Below are positions 49,783 to 50,416 of a stretch of DNA of 64,000 nt, in pieces. How positions within the stretch are numbered: the first letter of the stretch is position 1; every line of letters begins with the position of its first letter. The stretch covers positions 1-64,000 of the forward strand of contig JAQWBQ010000002.1 of assembly GCA_028706295.1 (NCBI GenBank), written 5' to 3'. Both the position numbers and the translations under genes were made by a program. Source of the stretch: Bacteroidales bacterium (GTDB taxonomy: Bacteria > Bacteroidota > Bacteroidia > Bacteroidales > FEN-979). Under the pieces are notes generated by a model, which saw only the letters and a program-made list of their open reading frames with translations, ran no database searches and was not told the DNA's origin.

Positions 49783-50307
49783 TTATTTTCCCCGGAGTTT
49801 GTACCCGATTGGTTCTATCGGTTCATTTTTCTTCTGAATCAGTTCCCTGATTGCCCTGAAAACTTGTTGGATCTGATCGTCATGGTTCATAACAGTTCTT
49901 TCGAGTTCTTCAATTTTTAAAGATAGTTCACGATGTGTTTCAAGAAATCGACGAAGCTGTGCAAATACCCTCATGATGGCAATGTTTACATGGATTGCTT
50001 TTTTCGATTTAAGGACAGATGAAAGCATTGCCACACCTTGTTCGGTGAAGGCAAATGGCTTGTACCGGGAGCCGCCCCAACTTGAGGTCACAAATTGTGA
50101 CCTCAAGTTGCAGGTTTCATCCGGGTTCAGGATAAACAGGAAGTCGGAGGGAAACCTGTCATTGTTCCTTCTTACTGCTTGTTTTAGCACTTTTGTTGGA
50201 ATTTCATATAACCTTGCCAAATCTGAATCAAGTATTATCTTTTCCCCTCGGATTAGATGAATCAAGCCGGAAATGTTTTCTGTTTTTTCGTGTAGGATTT
50301 CTTCCAT
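49783..50307 (-). CDS. ORF6N domain DNA-binding-like protein
   Basis: The 174-aa protein has an N-terminal ORF6N domain (about 10-100: IRGEKIILDSDLARLYEIPTK to the conserved YKPFAFTEQGVAML) and a C-terminal coiled coil (about 115-160). ORF6N/KilA-N proteins are common in phages and as stray bacterial genes and are thought to bind DNA. No phage genes surround this one. The codons for CNLRSQFVTSSW form a nearly perfect 33-bp palindrome, listed separately. Confidence 0.9.
   Translation of the reverse strand: MEEILHEKTENISGLIHLIRGEKIILDSDLARLYEIPTKVLKQAVRRNNDRFPSDFLFILNPDETCNLRSQFVTSSWGGSRYKPFAFTEQGVAMLSSVLKSKKAIHVNIAIMRVFAQLRRFLETHRELSLKIEELERTVMNHDDQIQQVFRAIRELIQKKNEPIEPIGYKLRGK
50078..50110. 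repeat. 33-bp near-perfect palindrome inside the ORF6N coding sequence
   Basis: Arms CAACTTGAGGTCACAA and TTGTGACCTCAAGTTG are exact reverse complements of 16 bases around a single central A at 50094. Chance occurrence of 16 paired bases in coding DNA is very unlikely. It could be an operator for the protein itself or form a hairpin in its mRNA. Confidence 0.9.
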
Positions 50308-50416
50308 GACTTTTTAATGTTAATCGGCATATTGATGAAATGTAAGTTGGAATAACTGAAAATTATCTGCCTTTGCTTGAAGGACGCAGGATAAATAAGT
50401 ATTTGGATTTATTCGC

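Follow-up and report, generated by a model that had tools for sequence, protein, structure and literature searches.

The window, the whole 64,000-nucleotide stretch of Bacteroidales DNA analyzed here, contains a minus-strand gene for a 174-residue protein that matches the Pfam ORF6N domain (PF10543) with E = 4e-31 (107.4 bits versus a cut-off of 27.8). Embedded in this gene is a palindrome with arms CAACTTGAGGTCACAA (50078-50093) and TTGTGACCTCAAGTTG (50095-50110), which are 100% complementary around a single A (Table 1). By arithmetic, chance would yield only ~3e-5 perfect 16-bp dyads, odd or even, per 64 kb. On the gene strand, the dyad center coincides with the first base of codon 72, with arms spanning codons 67-77 and the dyad coding for the tail of residue 66 through W77, in a variable loop between the conserved blocks FPxDFMFxL and FTEQGVAML. 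An earlier note had described a near-perfect 33-bp palindrome in the most conserved part of the ORF6N domain. The palindrome is real and indeed perfect, but its placement was wrong, as the dyad codes for a variable loop modeled with low confidence. No second site of this kind was found within the window. A dispersed or mobile palindromic repeat (REP or RPE) was rejected as an explanation because the sequence is a single site in its own 4.0-Mb genome, allowing for up to three mismatches.

Table 1. Features of the ORF6N locus, in window coordinates.
Feature	Position	Strand	Basis or remark
ORF6N gene, 174 aa	49783..50307	minus	ORF list and Pfam; N-terminal ORF6N domain containing a helix-turn-helix (HTH), then C-terminal helices
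C-terminal helices, residues 102-139 and 144-161	49825..50004	minus	AlphaFold
Perfect odd palindrome, proposed operator of the encoded protein	50078..50110		Center 50094, 16-bp arms
Core of the proposed operator, TnnCAnnnTGnnA, offsets -6 to +6	50088..50100		Fixed bases kept in both reading registers across homologs
Specificity bases, offsets 4-5 of one half-site	50089..50090		Partner 50098-50099; 'TG' class, as Q43 predicts
Bases at offsets 7-8 of one half-site	50101..50102		Partner 50086-50087; 'CC' class, as K39 predicts
Predicted recognition helix, residues 38-47, TKVLKQAVRR	50167..50196	minus	AlphaFold
Codon of Q43 (column 34)	50179..50181	minus	Main determinant of offsets 4/5
Codons of K39 and V40 (columns 30 and 31)	50188..50193	minus	Covary with offsets 7/8 and 4/5
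First helix of the predicted HTH, residues 27-34	50206..50229	minus	AlphaFold
Diverged copy of the leader motif TATYACYTTTT-N-SGATTAAG	50320..50345	minus	Upstream of the ORF6N ATG; weak resemblance

The comparison of ORF6N genes covered 30 homologs from other genomes, 38 of the 43 genomes in the window's taxonomic family, a phylum sample and viral contigs. A dyad occupies the homologous place in ~93% of the 151 genes that span it, always with an odd center, with arms of 10-22 bp and with a gene-specific sequence. A later set of 112 genes, drawn mainly from a search of the phylum Bdellovibrionota and complemented by Omnitrophota, Nitrospirota, Elusimicrobia and other genomes, contained the dyad in 109 cases. 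Dyad-bearing genes thus span Bacteroidota, Omnitrophota, Nitrospirota, Bdellovibrionota and viral contigs. Scanning the 43 genomes with a 15-bp consensus returned ~53 sites, almost every one of which lay within or next to an ORF6N gene, versus none for the reversed pattern; exceptions were ORF6N remnants or solitary intergenic copies. ORF6N relatives were present in only five of 50,697 phage records, and a viral search with the single window protein as query gave no match.

Several unusual arrangements were seen during this survey. Solitary palindromes of the ORF6N type without a nearby ORF6N gene occurred at L336:1128, L335:1141 and L338:1162: one precedes a HigBA-like pair by ~190 bp, one lies where two genes converge and one is intergenic. 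In-frame duplication of a segment created two, or nearly three, in-gene palindromes in four genes (L057:1672/1732, L074:928/988, L075:808/868 and L080); these lie 60 bp apart and are mostly perfect, with differing arms. A further locus (L146:1300-1425) features four palindromes with differing arm types at a 34-nt pitch, the first within a truncated ORF6N gene and the array just upstream of an intact one. A search for triple-CAAWTTG arrays returned mostly unrelated repeats. Separately, we noted CAAATTGACCACCCC units, several per repeated element, at contig ends in several genomes (L202 and L207-L214, contig ends of genome G013, among others), and the element carrying them is likely the end of a mobile element. 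A perfect palindrome with 25-bp arms, GGGGACGGTTCTGTTTTTTTTATTATAATAAAAAAAACAGAACCGTCCCC, at L026:3456-3505 is unrelated to the ORF6N site.

Across 136 non-redundant genes, bases at offsets 2-13 pair in 94% of cases, compared to 25% at offsets 17-30, and all four pairs (A-T, T-A, G-C and C-G) occur at most of the varying offsets. With the protein held fixed and synonymous codons randomized, 5.3 of 12 positions would be expected to pair, while 11.3 were observed, corresponding to p<=0.01 in 98% of the genes; controls with shifted centers gave only 2.7-4.3 pairs. The simulation and these controls rule out that protein constraint alone keeps the arms. Moreover, two codon registers are in use for the dyad, whose center falls at codon position 1 (LRSQFVTSS type, including the window gene) or 2 (EVTNCDRL type), and the fixed bases of TnnCAnnnTGnnA are identical across both. 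The dyad is, therefore, maintained by selection as DNA through compensatory change. The earlier note's claim of selection on nucleic acid beyond protein held on the strength of this compensatory change, the two registers and the large excess over synonymous-codon chance. It had proposed that loss of the dyad as synonymous sites vary would refute the claim; in homologs, the opposite was observed and the dyad was kept.

A palindrome in a transcribed region could also act in mRNA as a hairpin, serving as a translation pause, an RNase III site or the target of an RNA-binding ORF6N protein. In favor of this alternative, the palindrome lies nearly always within coding sequence, a stem would likewise be expected to undergo compensatory change, and mismatches in the sites upstream of genes described below comprise six G-T versus one A-C, although these numbers are small. 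Against it, in-gene mismatches are not biased toward wobble pairs, with 27 G-T versus 22 A-C in the 136-gene set and 23 versus 21 in the later set. This lack of a G-T excess reveals no wobble tolerance and argues for a DNA site. In addition, neither the fixed bases at offsets 2, 3 and 6 nor a code linking bases to an HTH helix (see below) would be expected of a hairpin selected for structure only. We consider the hairpin very unlikely.

For protein columns outside the dyad, we computed the mutual information with each dyad base. Base +4 showed values of 0.97 with alignment column 34 and 0.68 with column 31, base +5 values of 0.60 and 0.43 with the same two columns, and column 30 was associated with +7 (0.47) and +8 (0.37). 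These three columns, 30, 31 and 34, correspond to K39, V40 and Q43 of the window protein. Columns 71-73, which adjoin the dyad in the same loop, are associated with offsets +8 to +12, where protein constraint cannot be separated. The remaining columns, including those between helix and palindrome, gave values near 0.02; as the intervening columns show no association, transfer of helix and palindrome as a linked block was rejected.

The associations amount to a legible residue-base code. Gln in column 34 corresponds to TG at +4/+5 (62 of 62 paired sites), Glu to CG (34/34) and Lys to GA (12/12). Arg accompanies GC or partial GC in loose, often asymmetric sites, and the rare Leu apparently CA. 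In column 30, Lys goes with CC in 72 of 74 genes and Arg mostly with TA. The code is the same in both registers: Gln occurs with SQFV or TNCD, Glu with SQIA or ANCD and Arg with CQFG or TNWH. Predictions from column 34 trained only on proteins with <45% identity were correct in 116 of 117 cases, and apart from this column only its helix neighbor, column 31, comes near in predicting +4/+5. With the code fixed beforehand, 84 of 91 sites in the later set were assigned correctly (67/68 for Gln and Glu), and over all genes the score was 202 of 210, compared to a mean of 72 and a maximum of 100 after shuffling. Phylogenetically independent pairs, taken from a tree built without the helix and dyad columns, all changed in the expected direction (Q-E 13/13, Q-R 8/8, Q-K 8/8, E-R 7/7 and E-K 6/6), with none opposite. 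Combinations of Glu with C, Arg or Lys with G, and Gln with T:A are ordinary major-groove contact chemistry. These data show that the dyad matches the specificity of the protein encoded around it. If the code is true, a Q43E/V40R protein would prefer TTGCGACC. The apparent coevolution of residues 34 and 64 within ORF6N proteins is, accordingly, caused by DNA rather than by protein contacts.

The code also bears on a purely mutational origin, in which fold-back template switching would correct imperfect palindromes and keep the dyad without selection. Template switching is known to perfect quasi-palindromes, and the arms are often perfect past the operator core. However, this process does not account for a position and core that stay constant across phyla, for the two registers, for the upstream relocation of sites or for a base code tied to residues encoded ~87 nt away. 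The code largely refutes this alternative, which we regard as all but excluded.

An AlphaFold model of the window protein, based on a 54-sequence alignment (pLDDT 86), predicts an HTH with pLDDT ~96 at helices 27-34 and 38-47. In this model, the covarying residues K39, V40 and Q43 all reside in the second HTH helix, the presumed recognition helix. The loop encoded by the dyad has a pLDDT of ~60, and its low-confidence character would explain why the protein tolerates the dyad. The C-terminal helices are inferred to be a possible dimerization part. Foldseek comparison to viral models returned KilA-N and antirepressor proteins (best E=1e-5), while no match with E<0.001 was found in the PDB and a sequence-based search for relatives with solved structures gave none that was credible.

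Sites outside the coding sequence follow the same code in part. A second palindrome was present at -150 to -8 relative to the start codon in 20 of 136 genes, compared to one of 136 in the next stretch outward, and relocated or second sites in some relatives lie 20-110 bp before the start codon. Among the ten genes lacking an internal dyad, five carry an upstream dyad and five have neither; each of these five upstream dyads agrees with what column 34 of its gene predicts. For genes with both an internal and a flanking site, the flanking site fits the gene's own code in ~9 cases and not in ~8. Some of the misfitting sites are remnants of other ORF6N genes, and extra flanking sites that do not fit the code of the neighboring gene were recorded at L116, L125, L159, L166 and L139.

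The regions before these genes additionally revealed leader motifs. In 35 of the 43 genomes of the window's family, we found a 29-nt motif, TATYACYTTTT-N-SGATTAAG, with as many as ~26 copies per genome and zero hits for the reversed control. It is located at position ~1501 in each of L340-L369 and upstream of many ORF6N genes (for example, L057, L082 and L061). Most copies lie just 5' of start codons, including those of comEC, dprA, comF-like, comM/yifB, ssb and DUF2851 genes; PorP-like, 23S IVP, HicA, IS200-type and ORF6N genes are preceded as well. A role as cassette boundary was dropped, since comEC, dprA, ssb and further housekeeping genes carry the motif upstream as well, which makes a promoter or regulon motif likelier. 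It might represent the promoter of a natural-competence regulon. Omnitrophota ORF6N genes (L011, L014, L020 and L026) share a different leader upstream of the ATG, roughly GTTAGATTT-N12-CGTCTATTGNNGTAGG.

Taken together, we propose that the palindrome is the operator of the ORF6N protein encoded by the same gene and mediates autoregulation. We consider this very likely (probability roughly 0.85), although binding, dimerization and repression are inferred and neither binding nor expression data exist. The protein would read both palindrome halves with its recognition helix and presumably acts as a dimer, as suggested by the two-fold site and the C-terminal helices. Q43, helped by V40, would specify offsets 4/5 and K39 offsets 7/8, with the fixed core TnnCAnnnTGnnA common to the family. 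Half-site symmetry reaches ±13 and sometimes ±22, farther than the base pairs linked to residues of the helix; for the outer part, beyond offset 8, we found no clear protein determinant. Because the site is placed ~215 bp into the gene, where the codons specify a flexible loop, negative autoregulation is most likely, in which the bound protein would block or dampen the gene's transcription. Operators located 215 bp past the start are unusual, however, and the mode of repression, therefore, remains a guess. Of the roles suggested in the earlier note, that of a binding site for the encoded protein gains strong support from the helix-base code and from the upstream sites obeying it, an mRNA hairpin is disfavored by the missing G-U excess and a recombinase target received no positive support.

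A related alternative is a recombination, homing or copy-recognition site, in which ORF6N would be a mobile gene and its protein, by binding to that gene, would regulate its movement or copies that arrive. Consistent with mobility, ORF6N genes are patchily distributed over distant phyla and often multicopy, tandem or broken, and palindromes occur in truncated genes, in the L146 array and at a few solitary intergenic places. Conversely, Pfam detected no nuclease or recombinase domain in the protein, conserved ends were not apparent and the gene contains the site in intact form. Paralogs of one genome also do not avoid common half-sites: 11 of 73 within-genome pairs share one, versus 10.8 after shuffling, which likewise leaves diversification to avoid cross-talk between paralogs unsupported. 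We judge the recombination or homing site very unlikely. A bolder form of the operator model remains possible, although less likely than not, in which these are a widespread class of self-recognizing genes that each carry the address of their own product in the coding sequence. Protein and site would diversify together, and the protein's main targets would be copies of the gene that encodes it, newly arriving ones among them, and not a host regulon; a mobile gene would thereby possess a device for copy-number control or immunity.

No DNA target of ORF6N, a common domain, was described in the literature searched; our analysis supplies such a target, a recognition helix and a near-deterministic code, with binding itself inferred. 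A full-text search restricted to open-license literature found no paper linking ORF6N to a palindrome or inverted repeat; one phage genome description contains both terms (PMC6591296), and its content was not assessed. The window protein resembles phage antirepressors with KilA-N, Bro-N or ORF6N domains in its Pfam domain and viral fold matches, and DNA binding is assumed for these families. The antirepressors retrieved from the literature are phage switch proteins paired with a repressor (PMC2701414), whereas most ORF6N genes of this study are chromosomal and every one has a proposed operator of its own. A closer parallel is Escherichia coli PurR, an autoregulated HTH repressor with an operator inside its own coding sequence. 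Similar to PurR-type autoregulators, ORF6N genes contain a symmetric site inside the gene, with binding by the ORF6N protein inferred. In contrast to such single cases, the internal site is near-universal across phyla and moves with the specificity code, and it is not known to serve other genes. Palindromic elements within genes, such as those of Rickettsia and REP sequences, are dispersed repeats of a common sequence; the ORF6N palindrome shares the in-gene location but is gene-specific and unique in the genome.

Residue-base covariation itself has precedents in the MerR and GntR families, where recognition-helix residues covary with operator bases and, for MerR, correlated positions matched side-chain contacts of known structures, mostly in the recognition helix (PMC5045206, PMC4494728). 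Sites in those studies were derived from regulons, whereas each ORF6N gene holds its own site, so that a single sequence contains both protein and site, and two base pairs can be predicted from one residue with hardly any exceptions. Covariation and single intragenic operators were, thus, already known; new is a whole family that carries an in-gene site with a legible code. Since every gene comes with a site, natural protein-site pairs can be read by the thousands from sequence alone, a rare resource for studying protein-DNA recognition.
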